IMG/VR virus record: IMGVR_UViG_3300044712_002209
Span: 1-22,046 of that record
DNA: 22,046 nt
Source of the DNA: a virus
Strand: one strand, 5' to 3'
The translations under genes and the position numbers were made by a program. The notes under the pieces are model-generated. The model did no database searches. It saw nothing but the letters and a program-made list of their open reading frames with translations, and was not told where the DNA came from. Shown one piece after another: positions 2,442 to 18,474 of the stretch (positions are counted from its first letter, which is position 1; every line of letters begins with the position of its first letter).

Positions 2442-2519
2442 CGGTTTCCCAGGGCAGGGGTAGCACCCCGCCGGACGCCTCGCCGGCAGCCCTGGGGATA
2501 TTTATCAATGAGGCAAAAT

Positions 2520-2547
2520 CCCCCCTACCCCCCTTTCCAAAGGGGGG
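2520..2547. repeat. C/G-run palindrome (CCCCCCTTT-CC-AAAGGGGGG)
   Basis: A 9-base-pair perfect stem (2528-2536 with 2539-2547) with a 2-base loop, preceded by another run of six C. It lies in the 123-base gap between a small early gene and the recombinase at 2565. It is of the same kind as the element inserted in the terminase gene at 15301-15359. As RNA it would form a strong hairpin without a T-run, ending 17 bases before the recombinase start. Confidence 0.7.
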
Positions 2548-2564
2548 AGAGGCTAGGAGGCTTT

Positions 2565-3155
2565 ATGAAATATTTGTCCGAGAAAGAGGAAAAGACGCTG
2601 ATCCGCACGGTGCGGGAAGTCAAGGGGAAGAAGGCGGAACGGGACCATGTGATCATCCGCATTGGTCTCGGCCTTGCCTTACGAGCCGGAGAACTTGCAG
2701 GGCTGACGGTCGGCGACGTAAGAAACCGTGAAACCCTTTACGTCCGACCGGAGATAGCCAAGATGAACTCGGCCGGGACCGTGCCGATCTCCAGGGATCT
2801 CCAGGCGCTGATTCGCAATTTCATCAAGCTGAAACTGATCTGGAAGGAGCCGATCAACGACACGGCCCCGCTTTTTGTTTCCCGCAACGGAGACCCCCTA
2901 TCGAAGCGGAGCCTCCAGGAGTCTATCGAAAACTGGATGATCTTCTCCGGCCTCACCACTACCAGGGGTGACGATATAATCCCCCTCTACTCCACCCACA
3001 GCCTGCGCCATTCCTGCCTGATGCGGATGCGCGAGCGGGGCGTGCGGATCGAGACTATTCAGAAATTCGCCCGCCACAAGTCGCTGGCATCGACGGGGAT
3101 CTATACCGAGGCGACGCTGGAAGAAATGGCCGAAGCGGCCGAGATGCGGGGGTGA
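2565..3155 (+). CDS. Short tyrosine recombinase/integrase (catalytic domain only)
   Basis: This 196-residue protein is a tyrosine recombinase catalytic domain with the full active-site set: R40 (LRAGEL), K66 in the beta-hairpin, H145-x-x-R148 (HSLRHS), H171 (ARHKS) and Y180 (GIYTEA). It cuts DNA through a phosphotyrosine link. It lacks the usual N-terminal core-binding domain, so it is shorter than a standard phage integrase (300-400 residues) and resembles small phage-borne recombinases of unknown target. ATG at 2565 follows AGGAGG at 4 bases; the open frame extends to 2508, but that part is the translated palindrome. The next gene begins at its stop, so it is part of the early operon rather than sitting alone beside an attachment site. 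Confidence 0.8.
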   Translation: MKYLSEKEEKTLIRTVREVKGKKAERDHVIIRIGLGLALRAGELAGLTVGDVRNRETLYVRPEIAKMNSAGTVPISRDLQALIRNFIKLKLIWKEPINDTAPLFVSRNGDPLSKRSLQESIENWMIFSGLTTTRGDDIIPLYSTHSLRHSCLMRMRERGVRIETIQKFARHKSLASTGIYTEATLEEMAEAAEMRG

Positions 3156-9973: not shown

Positions 9974-10281
9974 GGGTGAAAGTCTCCCGGAAAGGGTGAG
10001 ACCAGGCGTGAAAGTGTGGCGATTTTGCCTCACTTCTCTTTTTTTCTTAGCATTTTCAAGGGTGCCTGGACATATTTGTAAAACACTTTCACACTTTCAC
10101 CATTTTACCTTATTCTTTAATATTATTAGTTAGTTAGTTGGGGTGAAAGTCTGGTGAAAGTCTGGTGAAAGTCTGGTGAAAGTCTGGTGAATCTTGCGGC
10201 CTGTTTTGAACTTTCACCCCAACGTAAAGCCGCACTGGTCAAGGGTTTGCGGCATGGGGTGAAAGGGGTGAAACTCTGAGA
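9974..10281. repeat. Iteron array, probable phage replication origin
   Basis: The unit GGTGAAAGTCT occurs four times in perfect tandem at 10142-10185, followed by a partial GGTGAA (10186-10191). Further GTGAAA(GT) copies lie at 9974-9984 and 10007-10016, inverted at 10084-10101 (two copies) and 10210-10220, and direct at 10256-10273 (two copies). The tandem block is bracketed by a perfect 14-base inverted repeat, GTTGGGGTGAAAGT (10137-10150) and its complement (10210-10223), and preceded by an AT-rich stretch (10102-10136) suited to melting. It has no gene and lies directly after the primase-helicase, as expected for an origin read by that protein. Known parallel: the P4 alpha primase-helicase binds GGTGAACA-type iterons. 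The origin function is inferred. Confidence 0.7.
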
Positions 10282-10775: not shown

Positions 10776-11798
10776 ATGACTCTTGACGCCCTCCTCTTCG
10801 CCTGGATGGAATTCCTGAGCATTCAGAAAGGCCAGCGGCCTAGCACCGTGGCGCATTACGAGAAGGTCGTCCGCTCTTTCTTCACCTGGACTGGCGTTGA
10901 CGGGCTTCCTCCTCTTTCCCCGGACAAGATCAGCCGGGATATCATCGGCGAATGGCTGAAAGACCTCTTTTACGAGCATAAGAACATCCGGCCCGCGACT
11001 CGGGCCTCCAAGCTCTCCGCTCTCCGCTCCTTTTTCGCCTGGCTCCGCTATGCCGGGCATATTGCCGTTGACCCTACCCAGGGGATTCCATCCCCCAAGG
11101 TCCAGGACACTCTCCCGCAGAAATTCAGCACCGAGGAACTCCAGCTCCTCTTTGCGGCTCCGCGGCGTGACAAGATCATGGGGCTGCGCGATCTGGCCCT
11201 GTTGAAGACCCTCTATGCGGCCGGGCCCCGAGTCTCCGAGTTGGTCAACCTGGACATAAACCATGTTGTCGATTCCGGCGGGTATATCCGCCTGCAGATC
11301 ATCGACGGCAAGGGGGGGAAGAGCAGGACAATCACCATGCGGACAAATCCCAGCCGGTCGCTCCGGGAATGGCTGAATATCCGGCGCACGATAGACACCC
11401 CGGACCCGGCGCTCTTCATTCGCCTGAAAGGCCCTCCCAACAGACTGACGACCAAGAGCGCCCAGAATATCCTCAAGAAATACGCCAGGATCATCGGCAT
11501 TGACGACCTGGAGGCCTTTTGCCACAAGATGAGGGCTACCTTTGCCTCCGACCTTTATGACAGCGGGAACGACCATTGCCCGCATTGCAGGCGGCAGATA
11601 ACCTATGTCGGCCCCGTCGAGGTTGCCATGCTGCTCGGACACGAACCGACCGACCTGGCCACCGTCATGCGTTACATTGCCATATCCGACCGGGTGTTGA
11701 GAAAGACGGCCATACCTGACAGGCGGTTCAACGAGATAGAGGAAGGGGGGAAAAGTGTCCAGATTGGAGCACAGAGAGGTAATCAGGGAACTGTTTGA
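10776..11798 (+). CDS. XerC/D-like tyrosine recombinase with a CxxC insertion
   Basis: A 340-residue recombinase with an N-terminal SAM-like core-binding domain (about 3-100) and a catalytic domain. The active-site residues are R152 (GPRVSEL), K179 or K182 in DGKGGK, H250-x-x-R253 (HKMRAT), H289 (LLGHEP) and Y300 (VMRYI). Between HxxR and the last His there is a short insertion, NDHCPHCRRQI (about 265-275), with one CxxC pair, which standard XerC/D proteins lack. It is a candidate for the phage integrase because it borders a non-coding region with repeats, although two other recombinases are present. ATG at 10776 follows a G-run; the frame extends to 10755. Its 3' end overlaps the Mor-like gene by 44 bases. 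Confidence 0.85.
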   Translation: MTLDALLFAWMEFLSIQKGQRPSTVAHYEKVVRSFFTWTGVDGLPPLSPDKISRDIIGEWLKDLFYEHKNIRPATRASKLSALRSFFAWLRYAGHIAVDPTQGIPSPKVQDTLPQKFSTEELQLLFAAPRRDKIMGLRDLALLKTLYAAGPRVSELVNLDINHVVDSGGYIRLQIIDGKGGKSRTITMRTNPSRSLREWLNIRRTIDTPDPALFIRLKGPPNRLTTKSAQNILKKYARIIGIDDLEAFCHKMRATFASDLYDSGNDHCPHCRRQITYVGPVEVAMLLGHEPTDLATVMRYIAISDRVLRKTAIPDRRFNEIEEGGKSVQIGAQRGNQGTV

Positions 11799-12024
11799 CC
11801 GGCTGCGCGAGGAATTCGGGCATGAGGCCCCAAGGATCATCCAGATACTTGTCGAAGCGGTCGGCGGGATGCAGATAAGAATCCCCGATCTCTCGTACCT
11901 TTACCGTCAGGAGCGCAACCGGCGGATCAGGAACGAATTCAACGGGCGGAATCATGAGGAGCTGGCCATAAAGTACAGGTTGAAGATCCGGTGGGTGCGA
12001 AGAATCATAAACTCGCAAAAATAG
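11755..12024 (+). CDS. Mor/C-family transcription activator
   Basis: An 89-residue protein matching the Mor transcription-activator family of phage Mu (Mor activates middle genes and C activates late genes). The signature parts are present in order: IIQILVEAVGGMQIRIPDLS (dimerisation helix and strand), RNRRIRNEFNGRNHEELA, and the C-terminal helix-turn-helix KYRLKIRWVRRII. The start is GTG at 11755, 4-6 bases after AGGGGGG. Its stop codon overlaps the first of three promoter-like elements (12023, 13366, 18434), which are its most likely targets and lie before the antirepressor, terminase and capsid operons. The family call is firm; its targets are inferred. Mor proteins bind a dyad next to a promoter with a weak -35, which these elements resemble. 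Confidence 0.85.
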   Translation: MSRLEHREVIRELFDRLREEFGHEAPRIIQILVEAVGGMQIRIPDLSYLYRQERNRRIRNEFNGRNHEELAIKYRLKIRWVRRIINSQK

Positions 12025-12063
12025 TGTCCTGAATTGGCCGAAGAGGACACATTTCTCTGATAA
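12023..12063 (+). promoter_or_regulatory. Activator-type promoter element, copy A
   Basis: AGTGTCC (12023-12029), 16 bases, GAC (12046-12048), 9 bases, TGATAA (12058-12063). GTGTCCT (12024-12030) and AGGACAC (12044-12050) form a 7-base inverted repeat. The same parts with identical spacing recur at 13366 and 18434. It overlaps the stop codon of the Mor-like gene and points toward the antisense-RNA/antirepressor cassette, so it may let the phage activator read through that cassette or autoregulate. Confidence 0.6.
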
Positions 12064-12099: not shown

Positions 12100-12128
12100 T
12101 TGACAATTCTAAAGTCTTTGGATATTCT
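12100..12128 (+). promoter_or_regulatory. Constitutive-looking promoter of the antisense-RNA cassette
   Basis: TTGACA (12100-12105), a 17-base spacer and TATTCT (12123-12128) form a strong sigma70-type promoter. Transcription should begin near 12135, that is, at the first target sequence TATCCA. It is the same grade of promoter as the one at 401-429 (identical boxes and spacing) and does not need an activator. In P1/P7-type immunity a constitutive promoter like this makes the c4 RNA in the lysogen. Confidence 0.65.
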
Positions 12129-12134
12129 TTCGGT

Positions 12135-12313
12135 ATCCAAAAAACCCAAGGGGCGCCGCTCCCTATAGCGGCCGTTTCATTTCCAGGCACCTGACATAGC
12201 CTGGAAACACACCGACGCTGGTTGTACCGACGCGCCGGTAGAGATGCGCCCTAACCGTAAGGCGGGCGGCGGTCCCTTGGGTCCGTGGATAGTCTCTACC
12301 GGCGCGTTTTTTT
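12135..12313 (+). ncRNA. Candidate c4-type antisense regulatory RNA
   Basis: The 190 bases between the promoter and the terminator T-run have no convincing gene but dense secondary structure: a 9-pair hairpin TTTCCAGGC/GCCTGGAAA (12180-12188 with 12199-12207) and the 14-pair terminator stem. A two-block segment, CCCTTGGGT (12274-12282) plus TGGATA (12286-12291), is complementary to ACCCAAGGG plus TATCCA at 12144-12152/12134-12139, and again to ACCCAAGG plus ATCCA at 12330-12337/12322-12326, the latter over the Shine-Dalgarno sequence of the next gene. One antisense segment between two target copies upstream of an antirepressor is the design of P1/P7 c4 and of the P4 CI RNA (seqB between seqA and seqC). 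The RNA's exact ends are unknown; processing to a shorter form is likely if it behaves like c4. Confidence 0.65.
12231..12313 (+). terminator. Intrinsic terminator with 14-bp stem and T7
   Basis: CGCGCCGGTAGAGA (12231-12244) pairs perfectly with TCTCTACCGGCGCG (12293-12306) and is followed at once by seven T (12307-12313). The 48-base loop contains the antisense segment. It should stop most transcripts before the antirepressor gene, so that read-through is the regulated event. Confidence 0.75.
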
Positions 12314-12321
12314 GCGTCAAA

Positions 12322-12340
12322 ATCCAAAAACCCAAGGAGG
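12322..12340 (+). promoter_or_regulatory. Antisense target covering the Shine-Dalgarno sequence
   Basis: ATCCA (12322-12326), a 3-base gap and ACCCAAGG (12330-12337) are complementary, with the same gap length, to TGGAT and CCTTGGGT within 12275-12290. AAGGAGG (12334-12340), the ribosome site for the ATG at 12347, overlaps the second block. Pairing would shut off translation of the leader frame and of the coupled antirepressor. Confidence 0.6.
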
Positions 12341-12346
12341 TAAGTC

Positions 12347-12427
12347 ATGGAAACAGCAGCGGAAAGAAGTTTTACGGTAGTACAGAGTTCAGCTTCAAGG
12401 AGTCGGCACCCACCATCCGGGCGATGA
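12347..12427 (+). CDS. Leader ORF coupled to the antirepressor (or its displaced N-terminus)
   Basis: A 26-codon frame starting 6 bases after a very strong AAGGAGG. Its stop TGA (12425-12427) overlaps the ATG at 12424 of the BRO frame. This recalls P1 icd, a short frame whose translation is needed for expression of the overlapping ant gene and whose ribosome site is the c4 target. The alternative is a one-base frameshift: the leader's METAAERSFTVVQ would make a natural beginning for the BRO protein, whose conserved strand (FSFKESAPTIRAMM) is encoded in the other frame from about 12391. Both readings fit the bases. Confidence 0.45.
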   Translation: METAAERSFTVVQSSASRSRHPPSGR

Positions 12428-12909
12428 TGGACCGGAACGGGGACCCATGGTTTGTGGCGACTGATGTCGCTGACATTTTGAATTTCCGGGATGCCAGTAA
12501 CGCGGCTCAAACCCTCAAAAATGATGAAAAGGGTACTTATAAAGTAAGTACCCTTCGCGGCGATCAGGAGGTGATTATCATCAACCTCTCCGGTCTTTAC
12601 CGCCTCATTTTCCGGTCCAACAAACCGGAGGCGGAGCTTTTTAGGCAGTGGGTCTTTAATGAAGTCCTCCCCGCCCTTCACCGGGTCGGCATGTATGGCG
12701 TCCCCCTCAATATGGAAGTCCCGGAGGCACCGGAAGAGGCCCTGGCGCTCTGGGTCTATCTGGACAAGCAGCAGGAATCGCTGCAATCACGCCTGCGGTC
12801 CATCCGCGACCTGAAAAAATCCGCCATGGCGCGGGTAAAGCAGAGCGCGCAGCCTTACCACATCCCCCTCGGCAAGCAGATCGGCCTCTTCTCGGGGGTG
12901 GAATCATGA
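12424..12909 (+). CDS. BRO-N domain antirepressor
   Basis: The protein carries a BRO family N-terminal domain: MMDRNGDPWFVATDVADILN, then NAAQTLKNDEKGTY, VIIINLSGLYRLIFRS and FRQWVFNEVLPALHRVG, the classical phage BRO/antirepressor order; a helical C-terminal part follows. Such proteins counteract CI-type repressors and trigger induction. The start is uncertain. The ATG at 12424 overlaps the stop of the leader frame as ATGA, but the domain's first strand is encoded upstream in this frame from about 12391, and the open frame reaches back to an ATG at 12244 inside the terminator hairpin, which is unlikely to be used. The good ribosome site belongs to the other frame at 12347, so either translational coupling or a frameshift is involved. 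Its stop overlaps the RadC-like start as ATGA. Confidence 0.75.
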   Translation: MMDRNGDPWFVATDVADILNFRDASNAAQTLKNDEKGTYKVSTLRGDQEVIIINLSGLYRLIFRSNKPEAELFRQWVFNEVLPALHRVGMYGVPLNMEVPEAPEEALALWVYLDKQQESLQSRLRSIRDLKKSAMARVKQSAQPYHIPLGKQIGLFSGVES

Positions 12910-13349
12910 CAAGCCTGAAAGTGGTCAAACACGGCAAGGCCAGTGGAAAAGAACGAATCTATGCCGGGCCGGAAGCCGTATTTTTGAGATGCAACGATTT
13001 ATGCCGCATGGACCGTGAACATTTCATAGTGATTCATCTCGATTCCCAAAACCATCTTATCGCCAGGGAAACCGTCGCTATCGGCGGGCTCAACACAGCC
13101 CATGTGCCGACCAGGGAAGTCTTCAAGGGCGCTGTTCTGAACGGCAGCGCCGCCCTGATCCTGGTCCACAACCACCCATCCGGCGACCCGAAGCCAAGCC
13201 GCAACGATTACGAGTTCACCCGCCGCCTCAAACGGGCGGGGGCGCTGATGGGCATTACGATACTGGACCACATCATAATCGGAGAATATATTTTTCACAG
13301 TATGAGGTGGCAAGACGATGCATGGTGGCTAGGGATGAACGCCGCTTAG
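12906..13349 (+). CDS. RadC-like JAB-domain protein
   Basis: A 147-residue protein of the RadC (MPN/JAB metal-binding) family. The motif VHNHPSGDPKPSRND contains the metal ligands H88 and H90 and the acidic D101 in the usual HxHPSGxxxPSxxD order, preceded by the NTAHVPTREVFKGAVLNGSA segment typical of RadC. It is the length of phage and mobile-element RadC proteins, which lack the helix-hairpin-helix N-terminus of chromosomal RadC. These are often linked with recombination or anti-restriction, but no activity is established. It is coupled to the BRO gene by ATGA and ends before promoter element B. Confidence 0.85.
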   Translation: MTSLKVVKHGKASGKERIYAGPEAVFLRCNDLCRMDREHFIVIHLDSQNHLIARETVAIGGLNTAHVPTREVFKGAVLNGSAALILVHNHPSGDPKPSRNDYEFTRRLKRAGALMGITILDHIIIGEYIFHSMRWQDDAWWLGMNAA

Positions 13350-13365
13350 ATAGAAACCTTCAAAT

Positions 13366-13406
13366 AGTGTCCTGTTTGCCACAAACAGGACCTTGATTTC
13401 TGATAT
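13366..13406 (+). promoter_or_regulatory. Activator-type promoter element, copy B (terminase operon)
   Basis: AGTGTCC (13366-13372), 16 bases, GAC (13389-13391), 9 bases, TGATAT (13401-13406): the same spacing as copies A and C. Here the dyad is perfect: GTCCTGTTTG (13369-13378) and CAAACAGGAC (13382-13391) with a 3-base centre. Its centre lies 21 bases before the -10-like hexamer, where a -35 box would otherwise be. The predicted transcript begins near 13413 and reads into the terminase genes. Confidence 0.7.
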
Positions 13407-13452: not shown

Positions 13453-14256
13453 ATGTCTACAACCACTAACCTTGTTGAAATACTCGAAAAGAATATCCAG
13501 GCGAAGCTGGACAGGGGCGAGACCTCCGTCGCCAAAGAGCTGCGCGAACTCCACGACCTGAAAGCCCTCCTCGAAAAAGACAAACCTTCTGAATCAATCC
13601 GCGAAGGCGAACCCGTCCGCGTCAAGCGCTCCTACACCATGACCGAAGCGGCCCGCGCCCAGCGTCAGGCCGCCGCCGCCATGTCCACCGGCCCGACCAC
13701 CTTGGCGGGCAAGGCCGCCAGCTCGAAAAACGCCTGGAAGCACGGCAAATTCGCACAGTCCCGCATTCTCGGCCTCGGCAAGCCCTGCAAATCCACCTGC
13801 CCGGACTTCCCCTGTTCGCTGGTGGAAGAGGGGCGCTGTACCCCCGGCGCCGACTGCCTGGACAAGGAGCACCTGATTGAAGCCTGCCTGGCCATCGAGC
13901 GGGCGCTGAAAGAACAGGATTTCGGCAATTTCCATGACCTGATGGTGATGGAGCTGGGGGAAACCCTGCAGGTCGTCCGCGAACTGCGCGCCTCCATTCT
14001 GGAGCATGGCGCGGTGATGGAGTCCGCCCACTTCGACAAGGAAGGCAAGGTCATCGGCTACGAGCTGAAGCCCCACCCCTCCCTTCTCGCCCTGCCGAAC
14101 CTGATGAAGAACCTGGGGATATCCTTCACCGACTTCATGATGACCCCGGCCGCCGTGGAGCGGAAGAAGAGCGGGCAGGAAGCGGCGGAAACCCTCGCCG
14201 ACATCCTTTCCGGCATCAACCGGAAGGTCAAGCAGGCGGAAGATGCAGGCCGTTGA
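13453..14256 (+). CDS. Probable terminase small subunit
   Basis: A 267-residue protein upstream of and overlapping the large terminase by 14 bases, the usual place of the small subunit, which binds the packaging site and recruits the motor. An N-terminal coiled helix (about 1-40) is followed by the phage-common TGPTTLAGKAASSKNAWKHG block, then a cysteine cluster (C-x3-CPDFPC-x7-C-x5-C, about 112-136) that probably binds zinc, and a C-terminal segment LPNLMKNLGISFTDFMMTP like the end of P27-type small subunits. The start at 13453 was chosen because GGAGGG lies 8 bases upstream; the open frame begins earlier at 13393, inside the promoter. The identification rests mainly on position and these partial matches. 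Confidence 0.7.
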   Translation: MSTTTNLVEILEKNIQAKLDRGETSVAKELRELHDLKALLEKDKPSESIREGEPVRVKRSYTMTEAARAQRQAAAAMSTGPTTLAGKAASSKNAWKHGKFAQSRILGLGKPCKSTCPDFPCSLVEEGRCTPGADCLDKEHLIEACLAIERALKEQDFGNFHDLMVMELGETLQVVRELRASILEHGAVMESAHFDKEGKVIGYELKPHPSLLALPNLMKNLGISFTDFMMTPAAVERKKSGQEAAETLADILSGINRKVKQAEDAGR

Positions 14257-16066
14257 TCTCCTTGCCGGCCTCGGCAAAGAGATCGTCGTCCCCCGCGAAT
14301 CCTTTGAGGCGGCGCTGGAGCGTTTCGGCTGGTCATGGCATCAGGCGGCCCGCGGCGAGCTTCCTTCCCCCTTCTCTTCCCTGGACGAGTTCCAGCTTTG
14401 GATAATATCTTCCGACCCGGTGTTGTGGAGCGACCGCTATCTGATCGACCCGGACGATCCGGACCGCCCCTGGACCTTCTGGGATTACCAGGAAGAATCG
14501 ATCCGCTACCACGGCAATACCCTGCACGAATGCGGCGCGGAAGTCGGCAAGACCCGCGAGATCATCGCCTATATCCTGTGGAAGGCGTTCAACGTCCCCA
14601 ACGGCTCCGGTCTGGTCACCGCGCCGATGACCATCCACCTGATGGAGATCATCGACAACCTGGAGCAGCAGCTCGCCCACAATGCCCGCCTGGGCAAGGC
14701 CCTTGTCCTTCACCGCAAGCAGCCCCACCACCACATGAAGTTTTCCAACGGCTTCAAGGTCGATTTCCGCCCCACCGGTCACGACGGCGAGGCCCTGCGC
14801 GGCGTCCACGTCTCCACCTTCGCCATGGTGGACGAGGCGGCGAAGATCAAGAACCCCTCGGTCTGGAAGGAATTCTGGCGGGCCAGCAAGCCCGGCTGCG
14901 TCCACAAGTGCTACAGCACCCCGGACGGCGACCGCTCCACGGTCTTTTACCGGCTCTGCCAGAAGGCGGACGGGAAACTGAAAGAGGACGAAAAGGCCGA
15001 TGATGTGGGGCTCAAAAACCTCGAATTCCGGAAATTCCACTGGAGCAAGGAGCTTATGCCGCCCCCCTTCTGGACCCCGGAGCGGCGGCGCTTCTATATC
15101 GACCAGTACGGCGGCGAGGACTCCCCCGGCTACCAGCAGAACGTGCTCGGCAACTGGGGAGACCCGGAAAACAGCGTATTCCCCTGGTATCAGTTCCAGC
15201 GGCTTCTTCATGACGTGCCCGAGTATCGGTGTTTGAAAATTCTGGTGGATGAGAGTCATGGGGAGGTGTCGATTTATGGGTATGAACTGGTGAGGCCGCA
15301 TAACCCCCCCGTCCTGTCGGACACCCCCCCTTATCTTAAGGGGGGGAGGGGGGGGGTTACATTATCCAAACCCGAACCCGTCACGCTCATCGACAAGCGG
15401 GTCAGCAAGCACGGCTTTGACATCGCGGCGGAGATAAAGAGCTTTTTCGATCCCCTCCCCGGCCTCTGTTTCGGTGGCGCGGACCTGGGCTTTTCCCAGG
15501 ACCCGACGGAAATCTATATCAAGCTCGTTTACGGCAAGGCCCACCGCCTCATCTGCCGGGTGCAGTTGAAGGGGGTCACCTATGACCAGCAGGCCGACGC
15601 CATCGACGCCCTGGACGATATCTATGACGCCGGACAGAACAAGATGGGATGGGGGCTCGACTTCGGCAACGCCGGGTCCGCCGTAGTTCATATCCTCCAG
15701 GGGCAGGAAAAGTATGCTGCAAAGGATTACGAGGACCGCCTGACCGGCTACCAGTTTGGCGCGGCCTATGACGCCATCAGTGAAGATGGCGAGACCATCA
15801 TCGACAAGAAGAACGACAAGCCCGTGCGCCTTACCGCCAAGGAGCTGTCCACCGACCTGCTCACGACCAAGATGCAGCGGGTGGAACTGCAATACCCGTT
15901 CGACCCGGACATCATCTTATATTACCCGAGCCACACTTACCGCAACGGCCAGAACCGGCGCATATACAAGGACATTGACGACCATGTGATCGACGCCGAC
16001 CGGGTGTTGACCTTGCGCATCGTGCTGCCGGGCGAAATACAGGAAGACCTTTTCGCGTGTGGTTGA
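14243..16066 (+). CDS. Terminase large subunit (ATPase and nuclease)
   Basis: This 607-residue protein is the DNA-packaging motor. The ATPase domain has an atypical Walker A CGAEVGKTRE (G98-T104) and Walker B AMVDEAA (D197/E198). The RNase H-like nuclease domain has acidic residues in order: D414 (GADLGF), D473 (GLDFGN) and D584/D586 (VIDADR). It cuts concatemers and pumps DNA through the portal encoded just downstream. Between the domains, about residues 354-372 are encoded by an inserted palindrome and read PPVLSDTPPYLKGGRGG, with no place in the family. The DNA just before it (about 15226-15300) also uses unusual codons. ATG at 14243 overlaps the small-subunit gene. Confidence 0.9.
   Translation: MQAVDLLAGLGKEIVVPRESFEAALERFGWSWHQAARGELPSPFSSLDEFQLWIISSDPVLWSDRYLIDPDDPDRPWTFWDYQEESIRYHGNTLHECGAEVGKTREIIAYILWKAFNVPNGSGLVTAPMTIHLMEIIDNLEQQLAHNARLGKALVLHRKQPHHHMKFSNGFKVDFRPTGHDGEALRGVHVSTFAMVDEAAKIKNPSVWKEFWRASKPGCVHKCYSTPDGDRSTVFYRLCQKADGKLKEDEKADDVGLKNLEFRKFHWSKELMPPPFWTPERRRFYIDQYGGEDSPGYQQNVLGNWGDPENSVFPWYQFQRLLHDVPEYRCLKILVDESHGEVSIYGYELVRPHNPPVLSDTPPYLKGGRGGVTLSKPEPVTLIDKRVSKHGFDIAAEIKSFFDPLPGLCFGGADLGFSQDPTEIYIKLVYGKAHRLICRVQLKGVTYDQQADAIDALDDIYDAGQNKMGWGLDFGNAGSAVVHILQGQEKYAAKDYEDRLTGYQFGAAYDAISEDGETIIDKKNDKPVRLTAKELSTDLLTTKMQRVELQYPFDPDIILYYPSHTYRNGQNRRIYKDIDDHVIDADRVLTLRIVLPGEIQEDLFACG
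15301..15359. repeat. In-frame double palindrome inside the terminase gene
   Basis: Outer arms TAACCCCCCC (15301-15310) and GGGGGGGTTA (15350-15359) are perfectly complementary. Nested inside is a second hairpin, CCCCCCCTTA (15324-15333) with TAAGGGGGGG (15337-15346) and a 3-base loop. The frame stays open across it. It is of the same kind as the palindrome at 2520-2547. Confidence 0.8.
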
Positions 16067-16108: not shown

Positions 16109-18301
16109 ATGAAAATATTCGGCTTCAACATCACCCGGGCCAAGGCGCCGGCGCCGGACGTGGCCACCCGGACGCAATACTCCACTACCGCGGCGCAGGG
16201 TCCGCTTACCCCATGGTTCCAGGATTATTACCTGCGCAAAGTCTCCGGCGATTTTTATGAGGCCCTGCGCGAGGGTATTCCGGTCATCGACGCGGCGATC
16301 CGCCGGCTGATCTCCCTGAACGGCACCATCAAGGTCATCGGCACGAACGGCCCCCTGGTGAGCGAGCTGGAGGAGTTCTGCATAAACGTCCCGGTCAACG
16401 ATCACCAGAAAGGGATACACGCTTTCCTGGAAAACTTCAGCAATGAAGTGTTCGAACAGGGCTTCGCGCTTCCCGAATTCATCGCCACCCCCGGGCTTGA
16501 CGATATCGCCCAGCTGCGCGTACCCGATTCCAAGCAGATCATCTTCCGGCGGAACAACGACGGCGCCACCGAGCCGTGGTATCGCTACATAAACAGCTTC
16601 CTCCCGGCCTCCGTTACCCGTTACACCTCCCCCCAGACCCTGGTAGAGCGGATACTCACCGCAACCTATAACCAGGCGTGTTACATCAATAGCGGCTGGG
16701 AAGTGAAATTGAACCCGGCCAACAAGCTCTATTTCTCGATAAATAACGAAAATGCGGACCCCTATGGCGTGTCCCTTATGCGTTCCATGGAGTTCTGCGC
16801 GAAACTGCTGATGACCATGCAGAATTCACTCGGCAATGTCTGGGAGCGTTTCGGCGACCCCTCCTATCACGTAAATTATAAGACCACGAAAAGGGACCTG
16901 GGGGGCACCGACCTGGAGTCCCGCCGCCAGAAGATACAGACCGACTTCGACAATGCCATACGGGCCAAACGTGCCGGTAAATCGGCGGACTTTGTAACCG
17001 CAGTCAACACCGATGCAGACTTGGAGATCAAAATCATCGGTTCGGATGGCCAGGTATTGGAACTGGAGGTCCCGGCCCAGCACGTACTCGACCAGATCGT
17101 CAGTAAGACCGGCCTCCCCCCCTGGATGCTAAGCGTCTCCAGCCGCACCGTCCAGGGGCTGGCCACGCTCGAAGTGGAAGCGGCCTTGCAGGATGCCAAG
17201 ATTCGCCAACTCGCCATGCTCCCCGAGTTGGTCCGGCTCTTCTCCGTGTTCCTGCGTCTGCGCGGGCGCACCTGGAAGAGCATCAACCTTTCCGGAGACC
17301 CGGAGAAGCCGGGCGACTGGGGCATCATCTTCGAAACCCCGAACCTCCGCGACCTGGTGGCCCAGGCCCAGGCCCGTTTCTTGAACGCCCAGGCGGACCA
17401 GATGCAAAGCGCGGCCACCACCGTGCCGAGCATACCAAAGGCCCCACCACCGAAATCCGTAGGGGCGGTTCGCGAACCGCCCTTCCATACCTGCAAGGAC
17501 ATCCACGGCCAAAAAGAAGAACAGCGCCCCACCCCCTGGCCCGAGCTGGACAACGTGGAGACCGGCTACGAGAACCGCCTTAAAGCGGACTGGGAAGAAC
17601 TGCGCGGCAAGATATTCACCATTGCCAGGCTGACCGACGCCGATATCGCCATGGGAATGACGGGCCAAAGATCCGTAGGGGCGGTTCGCGAACCGCCCTC
17701 GTCCAAAGACCCTGATCCCTTCACCTTCACCGAAGAGCAGCGCGCCCAAGTCTTCAAATCCCTGGAGGGCATGATCGGCGAATACGCGCCTGATGCCGCC
17801 GGCTCCCCCATCACTTGGTATTACGGCCAGAGCTACAGCCTCGGGCTCATCCAGGCGGCGCGGATGGTGGGAGCGGAGCGCCCCATCCTGGACATCATAA
17901 AAAACCGGGAGATATTCGCCGAGATGGTGAAGTCCGGATTCGAGTTGTTCAAGAACAACGCGGAACTTTCTGTCGGCAGCATCATCTCTGAGATGGAGGC
18001 CCACATGCTTGCCGGGAGCAATCCCCTTTCCGTGGCGGACCGGCTCAAAAGCAAGTTTAAGGGGCAAGATATTAATTGGGAACGACTGGCGAGGACGGAA
18101 ATGTCCGGCGCCGCGGAACAGGCAAAGGTCAACGAGTGGAAGGAATGGGGGGTAAACGTCAAAAAAGCGATCATCGCCGGGCGTGACACCCACCCCCGCT
18201 GCCGCTGCGCCAACACGGTGGTACAGGTGGACGGCGAATGGCGGCTCAAGTTCTCCCCCGCCCCGGATGCGTGCGCACTCTGTTTTTCCCTGGCGACGTA
18301 A
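16109..18301 (+). CDS. Portal protein fused to a MuF-like minor head domain
   Basis: A 730-residue protein. About residues 20-430 are a portal: an early ALREGIPVIDAAIRRLISL helix, the stem region with PLVSELEEFC, and SKTGLPPWMLSVSSRTVQGL, then the helical crown; portals form the 12-fold ring for DNA entry. The C-terminal part (about 560-725) resembles the Mu gpF-type head morphogenesis domain: NWERLARTEMSGAAEQAKVNEW, DTHPRCRC and final cysteines. Usually these are separate neighbouring genes, so this is a natural fusion. The linker between them holds two copies of SVGAVREPP (V451-P458 and V523-P530), each encoded by an inserted palindrome. GGAGG precedes the ATG at 6 bases. Confidence 0.85.
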   Translation: MKIFGFNITRAKAPAPDVATRTQYSTTAAQGPLTPWFQDYYLRKVSGDFYEALREGIPVIDAAIRRLISLNGTIKVIGTNGPLVSELEEFCINVPVNDHQKGIHAFLENFSNEVFEQGFALPEFIATPGLDDIAQLRVPDSKQIIFRRNNDGATEPWYRYINSFLPASVTRYTSPQTLVERILTATYNQACYINSGWEVKLNPANKLYFSINNENADPYGVSLMRSMEFCAKLLMTMQNSLGNVWERFGDPSYHVNYKTTKRDLGGTDLESRRQKIQTDFDNAIRAKRAGKSADFVTAVNTDADLEIKIIGSDGQVLELEVPAQHVLDQIVSKTGLPPWMLSVSSRTVQGLATLEVEAALQDAKIRQLAMLPELVRLFSVFLRLRGRTWKSINLSGDPEKPGDWGIIFETPNLRDLVAQAQARFLNAQADQMQSAATTVPSIPKAPPPKSVGAVREPPFHTCKDIHGQKEEQRPTPWPELDNVETGYENRLKADWEELRGKIFTIARLTDADIAMGMTGQRSVGAVREPPSSKDPDPFTFTEEQRAQVFKSLEGMIGEYAPDAAGSPITWYYGQSYSLGLIQAARMVGAERPILDIIKNREIFAEMVKSGFELFKNNAELSVGSIISEMEAHMLAGSNPLSVADRLKSKFKGQDINWERLARTEMSGAAEQAKVNEWKEWGVNVKKAIIAGRDTHPRCRCANTVVQVDGEWRLKFSPAPDACALCFSLAT
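17459..17482. repeat. GTAGGGGCG palindrome, copy 2 (in-frame in portal gene)
   Basis: Contains the perfect 20-base palindrome GGGCGGTTCGCGAACCGCCC (17463-17482) preceded by GTAG. Read in frame as VGAVREPP. The flanking ATCC upstream is shared with copy 3. Confidence 0.9.
17675..17698. repeat. GTAGGGGCG palindrome, copy 3 (in-frame in portal gene)
   Basis: Identical to copy 2 over all 24 bases and in the same codon phase, again giving VGAVREPP. The two copies lie 216 bases (72 codons) apart, both in the linker between the portal and MuF-like domains. Confidence 0.9.
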
Positions 18302-18433
18302 AGGAGGCGTCAAGAAATGTTCCAGATGCCAGGCGCGCAAGGGTGAGGAGTGAGGCGTACATATAGTACGCCGCAGCGGCAGAGCCCGCAGAGCAACGCC
18401 GCAGATGGTCATTTATTGGCGCTGAGGTAAAAA
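18302..18433. other. Non-coding gap after the portal gene with a short hairpin
   Basis: No supportable gene lies here: the only ATG with a ribosome site (18317) opens nine codons. GGCGTAC (18354-18360) and GTACGCC (18366-18372) form a perfect 7-pair hairpin with an ATATA loop, without a T-run. The gap separates the terminase-portal block from the protease-capsid block and ends at promoter element C. Confidence 0.5.
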
Positions 18434-18474
18434 AGTGTCCTGTTTGCCCCAATTGAGACCTTGATTTCTGCTAT
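18434..18474 (+). promoter_or_regulatory. Activator-type promoter element, copy C (protease-capsid operon)
   Basis: AGTGTCC (18434-18440), 16 bases, GAC (18457-18459), 9 bases, TGCTAT (18469-18474). Long stretches are identical to copy B: AGTGTCCTGTTTGCC at the left and GACCTTGATTTCTG at the right. The right dyad arm is degenerate (AGAC for GGAC). The predicted transcript reads into the genes from 18518 onward. Confidence 0.7.

Follow-up and report, generated by a model that had tools for sequence, protein, structure and literature searches.

A terminator-fused C4-like RNA upstream of a BRO antirepressor gene in a viral contig, a putative phage immunity cassette

Introduction

Does the leader of a phage BRO antirepressor gene encode an antisense RNA of the C4 kind, and, if so, is that RNA one of those already catalogued? 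The question is raised by the region 12100-12909 of a 22-kb viral contig. The window, i.e., the whole stretch of DNA analyzed here, has 22,046 nucleotides (positions 1-22,046 of IMG/VR record IMGVR_UViG_3300044712_002209). RNAs of this kind have been described as a basis of phage immunity in Proteobacteria, among them Enterobacteriales, Burkholderiales and Pseudomonadales (PMC5320573, PMC2864571). The original prediction, made from sequence alone, had read the region as a C4-type cassette, in which an antisense RNA is flanked by two copies of its target and the second copy covers the ribosome-binding site of the antirepressor gene.

Anatomy of the locus

All features given here are on the plus strand. 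A sigma-70-type promoter (TTGACA-17-TATTCT, 12100-12128) is followed by the first target copy, a1b1 (TATCCA-N4-ACCCAAGGG, 12134-12152), where the transcript is predicted to begin. Immediately 3' of b1 is a terminator-like hairpin, T1 (GCCGCT-CCCTAT-AGCGGC, 12155-12172), at the position of the isrK-type terminator in P1-like loci, and a spacer hairpin (TTTCCAGGC / GCCTGGAAA) occupies 12180-12207. Most members of the RNA family described below have a hairpin 3' of b1, several of them with a T-run; T1 is followed by clear T-runs in the Nitrospirota relatives and by only a weak one in the window.

The C4-like RNA core spans 12230-12307. Its outer stem, P1 (15 perfect pairs, 12230-12244 / 12293-12307), doubles as the stem of a terminator, T2, with a run of seven T (12308-12314) that is kept in most relatives. 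Two hairpins are enclosed: P2 (CGCCC-UAA-CC-GUAA-GG-C-GGGCG, 12247-12268), whose GNRA tetraloop and UAA bulge are the family signature, and P3 (GCGG/CCGT, 12269-12286), which carries b' (CCCTTGGGT, 12274-12282) in its loop. Block b' is complementary to b1 and b2, and the single-stranded a' (TGGATA, 12286-12291) to a1 and a2, the whole antisense segment being CCCTTGGGT-ccg-TGGATA (12274-12291). The second target copy, a2b2 (12322-12340), comprises ATCCA-N3-ACCCAAGG (12322-12337) and runs into the Shine-Dalgarno sequence AAGGAGG (12334-12340), which b2 overlaps.

The leader contains a single target/antisense/target triad of 8+5 nt, and none arose in 20,000 dinucleotide shuffles; a 7+4 nt criterion likewise gave 0 of 20,000 shuffles of the leader, whose folding energy lies 4.6 sd below that of shuffled sequences. 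The predicted positions of the blocks, the promoter, the terminator and a 26-codon frame were all confirmed. The terminator had been described as 14 pairs with seven T, lying between the blocks: the T-run held, the stem has one pair more, and the hairpin encloses the antisense segment in its loop region rather than standing beside it.

A family of related RNAs

About 16 distinct elements of the same family were found in metagenomic phages and in genomes of Geobacteraceae, other Desulfobacterota and Nitrospirota. The phages whose terminases are most similar (95% to 78%) lack the cassette, and the homologues listed in unrelated contigs include L358/L438, L439/L440 and L441/L442. L358 was found using the BRO protein aligned with L198, and the same RNA lies 5' of its BRO gene; L439/L440 and L441/L442 were found by the P2 hairpin sequence. 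A covariance model built from four sequences, the window and its closest relatives (R1), recovered L469 (59.5 bits) from the Geobacteraceae family, six matches in Nitrospirota genomes, five of them convincing (L471-L474 and L476), and L316, from a Nitrospirae MAG. The refined model (R2) gave good scores for L316 and L284 and added L477-L479 in Desulfobacterota. The window meets all four criteria of the R2 family, namely a C4 fold, a GNRA-looped P2, the target triad and a promoter 4-6 nt before a1.

Several candidates were discarded. L470 and L475 were dropped as members after folding, and the genome matches L457-L460 covered terminator-length stretches only. Scans of public contigs with the block sequences alone returned many unrelated chance matches; of the block-scan matches rejected, L142 belongs to another kind of virus and L172 is just an inverted repeat ahead of a BRO gene, and a looser scan for GGCGGGCGGC...GTGGATAG gave 14 more loci, all chance. 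No match to the leader was returned by BLAST against phage and plasmid records, and the BRO protein, used as a single-sequence query, retrieved no relative. In a general anatomy search, the arrangement was present upstream of 22 of 198 BRO genes, in none of 196 downstream control regions and in one of 990 shuffled regions.

The distance from the -10 box to a1 is exactly 5 nt in 13 of the 16 members and 4-6 nt in all 16. Because this spacing is kept, the transcript should begin within a1, and transcription appears to start there in most members, an inference from promoter geometry in the absence of transcript data. An operator-like inverted repeat over the -10 box of the window (TTTGGATA-N9-TATCCAAA) is probably incidental, since it is absent from L358, L440 and L442.

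One Nitrospirae contig (L316) carries two C4-like cassettes with different b' (2014-2083 and 2871-2941), the first preceding an AntA-like gene and the second a BRO gene. Judging from their sequences, these are apparently two independent antisense circuits within one element.

Co-variation of the antisense segment with both targets

In each of the window, L358, L442 and L440, b', b1 and b2 mutually agree, and a' is constant (TGGATA). The window has ACCCAAGG as its b block, L358 has ACGTAGG, L442 ACAACAGG and L440 GTCAAAGG (b1 GTCAGAAGG); the b' variants across the closest relatives are given as CCCAAGG, CGTAGG, CAACAGG and GTCAAAGG, with both targets changed accordingly. For 12 members, cognate duplexes had mean energies of -18.0 (downstream target) and -21.7 kcal/mol (upstream target), compared with -11.2 and -15.1 kcal/mol when each antisense segment was paired with the leaders of other members, and none of 20,000 permutations reached a sum as low as that of the cognate pairing for either target. 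The downstream target is weak in L469, and L477 and L479 have no clear one.

Co-variation thus shows that the antisense-target pairing is real, the segment and both targets having changed together in phage and bacterial relatives, although no RNA data are available. Homologous loci in which they failed to do so would have refuted the original prediction; such loci were examined, and the predicted C4-type logic held. The same evidence bears on the view that the complementarity arose by chance around an ordinary terminator and ribosome-binding site. In favor of chance, scans with short blocks alone yield many unrelated matches; against it stand the shuffling result (0 of 20,000) and the conservation of co-variation in homologues, which all but exclude it.

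Conservation of the fold

Folding of 12228-12308 gave a 17-pair outer stem, the P2 hairpin, a GCGG/CCGU hairpin with b' in its loop and an unpaired a'. Folds of the P1 C4 RNA and of three further RNAs of Rfam C4 had the elements in the same order. The outer stem, too, is altered on both sides in the closest relatives. In a four-sequence alignment built without structure, all of the 101 cells (100%) are paired and six pairs have changed on both sides, compared with a shuffled mean of 2.5; one of 500 shuffles was as high. In the alignment of ten members to the model, 98.7% of cells are paired, and both sides have changed in 22 of 26 helix pairs (0 of 500 shuffles; two to five pairs in slid controls). 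The latter alignment was fitted to the structure and leans toward it, so the independent evidence consists of the four-sequence alignment and the target pairing. The P2 loop is of the GNRA type (GUAA, GUGA, GCGA or GCAA) in the aligned members. A riboswitch was rejected as an explanation: the element matches no known family, and its variable loop matches its own targets.

Comparison with known RNA families

A check with the Rfam C4 covariance model, which had been suggested with the original prediction, was negative. RF01695 (C4; gathering 45 bits) matched neither the window, even at E 5-10, nor the homologous records and genomes, and the Rfam models C4, c4-a1b1, isrK and c4-2 gave no match in a 901-base stretch of the window even at E up to 5. 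As positive controls (L122-L124), C4 and c4-a1b1 were matched in phiKO2, another Klebsiella phage and Bordetella phage IFTN3. R2, in turn, did not match P1, phiKO2 or other RF01695 loci.

The RNA nevertheless resembles the P1/P7 C4 RNA (RF01695, with c4-a1b1 RF03163) in its outer stem around two hairpins, with b' in the second loop and a' single-stranded, and in its setting: a1b1 lies upstream, a2b2 downstream over the ribosome-binding site and an antirepressor gene behind, all in the same transcript. It differs in several respects: neither Rfam model matches it, a U-run after the outer stem makes that stem a terminator in its own right, P2 contains a UAA bulge and is capped by a GNRA tetraloop, a1 is at the predicted start of transcription, no icd gene separates the RNA from the antirepressor in BRO-type members, and a' is constant while b' varies in the four closest members. 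The P1 C4 RNA is excised by RNase P (PMC5320573, citing Hartmann 1995). An alternative that we consider somewhat less likely is that the RNA is a true, though strongly diverged, member of Rfam C4 rather than of a separate family. For it speak the identical order of helices and loops and the finding that R1 matches a Paraburkholderia C4-type element (L290, E about 0.0003) and gives a weak match to an Rfam-C4 locus (L201); against it speak the lack of RF01695 matches in the window and its homologues and the lack of R2 matches to RF01695 loci. Common descent of the two groups remains possible and cannot be excluded.

The P4 CI RNA (seqA, seqB, seqC), a comparison drawn from the literature only (PMC4825925), has the same target-antisense-target order in one transcript; in P4, premature termination controls replication genes, whereas in the window b2 covers the Shine-Dalgarno sequence and an antirepressor gene follows. 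The locus could possibly act in the P4 manner, i.e., mainly by early termination of transcription through a1b1/T1 and lost translation at a2b2, with the translation block secondary. The order promoter, a1b1, T1, antisense, target equals that of P4, and the T-runs behind T1 in Nitrospirota members fit this view; however, b2 lies over the Shine-Dalgarno sequence in nearly all members, as it does in P1, and T1 of the window has merely its weak T-run.

Other families share parts of the anatomy. The isrK/Gifsy-1 antirepressor locus (RF01394) has a 5' target segment and terminator, a downstream antirepressor and alternative cis structures (PMC4825925), but no isrK match was found in the window. A weak c4-2 (RF02944) match, L274, lies upstream of a BRO gene and has an outer stem followed by T5; however, c4-2 matched neither the window nor any family member tested, and R2 does not match L274. 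In L209, L213 and L235, sRNA-Xcc1 (RF02221) takes the place of C4 ahead of BRO genes and is accompanied by target copies, but it is absent from the window and unmatched by R2. This Xanthomonas sRNA has no assigned role (PMC2996969); it may be another C4-type antirepressor regulator. L239 and L261 have an anatomy similar to the sRNA-Xcc1 loci without a reported Rfam match. In Bacteroidota (Prevotella, Saprospiraceae), L215/L285 and L340 have a C4-like fold, a terminator-fused stem and targets before BRO genes, and a c4-2 search of the genomes of L285 and L340 found no match.

The original prediction had placed novelty in a BRO protein in the ant role. This part failed: BRO genes stand behind RF01695 in at least seven viral loci and behind sRNA-Xcc1 or c4-2 in further ones, and the gene behind C4 in IFTN3 encodes a BRO/Rha-type antirepressor. 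Since Rfam C4 already precedes BRO in IFTN3 and viral contigs, BRO as a C4-controlled gene is not new. What is new here is the RNA family itself, its terminator fusion, its GNRA-capped hairpin and its host range.

The BRO gene and its neighborhood

The conserved part of the BRO-N antirepressor gene covers 12385-12909 (PF02498, E 1.2e-24; phrog_130 anti-repressor, E 1.7e-38), and a gene with a RadC-like JAB domain (12906-13349; PF04002, E 6.4e-39) lies directly behind it in the same module. The frame of the BRO-N domain and the conserved residues preceding it in the alignment (EFSFKES...IRAMM) has no start codon between the Shine-Dalgarno sequence and the domain. The ATG at 12347 is at the right distance from the Shine-Dalgarno sequence, but its frame (12347-12427) stops after 26 codons, with TGA at 12425. 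In the homologues L358, L441/L442, L316, L284 and L474, the ATG after the same Shine-Dalgarno sequence opens the BRO frame directly, and the corresponding ATG is in frame with BRO in L198 (MEKEFTAVREFSF), L358 (MKKEFATFREFSF), L442, L316 and L284. The 26-codon frame had been predicted to be a leader overlapping BRO. It exists, but an icd-like leader peptide was rejected on account of the homologues, and we reread the frame as the N-terminal coding part of BRO, one base out of frame. The true start is most likely ATG 12347, and one continuous BRO gene with a one-base discrepancy in the window contig is the simplest reading, the discrepancy being due to mutation, assembly error or, less likely, a programmed -1 frameshift. 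The ATGA overlap at 12424-12427 would also permit translational coupling; a start there would lose the conserved residues. Because the frame is broken near its start, this BRO copy may be inactive or mis-assembled.

A BRO gene stands directly behind the RNA in the window, L358, L442, L316, L284 and L474. The RNA is followed by P22-antirepressor-like proteins in L472 and L476, by Rha (PF09669) after two small frames in L439, and by small proteins of unknown kind in L471 and L479. The P22-antirepressor-like proteins and the AntA-like protein of L316 are what we take them to be from our own reading of the sequences, not from tool results. In L473, the family member (1501-1571) lies ahead of a serine recombinase gene, not an antirepressor.

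A Geobacteraceae MAG contig (L278) has an 83% identical terminase and a related BRO gene, from which we infer that the host probably belongs to the Geobacteraceae group. The closest phage relative, L188 (terminase 95%), has quite different genes at the C4-BRO-RadC site, and the cassette is therefore an exchangeable module; in L358, it lies upstream of a head protease gene instead of a small-terminase-like gene. At the left edge of the window, where a CI-like repressor had been predicted, ORF 1109-1573 resembles CII/CP76. That claim failed, and no CI-like repressor was found.

Proposed mechanism

The locus is very likely a temperate-phage immunity cassette with the logic of c4-icd-ant in P1/P7 and seqA/B/C in P4, its RNA forming a separate, unlisted family. 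The anatomy, the conserved fold, the co-variation with both targets, the promoter geometry and the linkage to antirepressor genes are shown. Action in trans, a block of translation, immunity set by b' and what the BRO protein inactivates are inferred by analogy with P1 and P4, without RNA or genetic data. On the same footing, the most likely role of the RNA is to block translation of the phage's own antirepressor. A single promoter would start transcription at a1b1, and the transcript would yield the C4-like RNA, the outer stem and seven U also terminating transcription. The free RNA would then bind a2b2 on read-through mRNA in trans, through b' in its hairpin loop and the single-stranded a', covering the Shine-Dalgarno sequence of the BRO antirepressor and keeping it off in the prophage. 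Pairing with a1b1, beside the T1 hairpin, would probably serve transcription feedback or mopping-up of the RNA. Where the RNA is missing, as for a newly infecting phage or one with another b', the antirepressor would be made and lytic growth would follow.

Some observations count against this explanation. An uncut transcript could possibly occupy its own antisense segment with a1b1; the second target is weak or missing in L469, L477 and L479; non-antirepressor or unknown genes lie behind the RNA in L473, L471 and L479; the BRO frame of the window is broken near its start; and no lysogenic repressor was identified as a target of the antirepressor. A rival is a cis-only attenuator without any RNA acting in trans: the antisense segment and a1b1 of one molecule would pair to form an antiterminator, with C4/T2 as the alternative terminator. 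In its support, the energies of the C4/terminator and a1b1-paired forms are at most 4 kcal/mol apart for 10 of the 11 members tested, a1b1 on average forms a stronger duplex than a2b2, and experiments have demonstrated a two-structure switch at a related locus, isrK of Gifsy-1 (PMC4825925). However, such an attenuator would not need a second target over the Shine-Dalgarno sequence, yet a2b2 co-varies as strictly as a1b1; moreover, b' is in a loop and a' single-stranded exactly as in C4, and the trans action of P1 C4 is established. We thus regard the cis-only model as unlikely and prefer the immunity cassette acting in trans.

A bolder reading is possible, in which the undescribed family of terminator-fused C4-like RNAs in Desulfobacterota and Nitrospirota phages and prophages forms a two-state RNA switch. 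Speculatively, cis pairing of a1b1 with the antisense segment would prevent the terminator fold and let the antirepressor be transcribed; in trans, existing RNA would occupy a1b1, and new transcripts would terminate, giving more RNA, with a2b2 blocked. The b' variants would then define separate immunity groups, and one prophage could hold two orthogonal copies, as in L316.

Significance

An Rfam-missed family in Geobacteraceae and Nitrospirota phages, with several specificities that differ in b' only, suggests that such switches are far more widespread. Block b' would provide a sequence rule for predicting the immunity of a prophage to given phages, and fusion of the terminator to the antisense fold makes the role of a1b1 directly testable. 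The cassettes may also be used as small orthogonal RNA regulators.

Other repeats in the window

A 45-nt repeat with a dyad (GTGTCCT...AGGACAC; GTCCTGTTTG...CAAACAGGAC) is present in three copies (12019-12063, 13362-13406 and 18430-18474), two of which bracket the C4-BRO-RadC module, the third preceding the head protease gene; L188 has a copy before its small-terminase-like gene. It may mark a module border or serve the Mor-like gene at 11755-12024 as an activator site. Besides, a palindromic repeat, GTAGGGGCGGTTCGCGAACCGCCC, occurs in six copies between 16071 and 21667; those at 17455 and 17671 lie in frame inside the portal-like ORF 16109-18301, adding VGAVREPP twice. Peptides such as TPPYLKGGRGGV and YPPFQRGE are further stretches that look repeat-derived, in the terminase-like (14243-16066) and integrase (2508-3155) genes. 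Finally, 10142-10196, after a primase-like gene, contains four head-to-tail copies of an iteron-like 11-nt unit, GGTGAAAGTCT.
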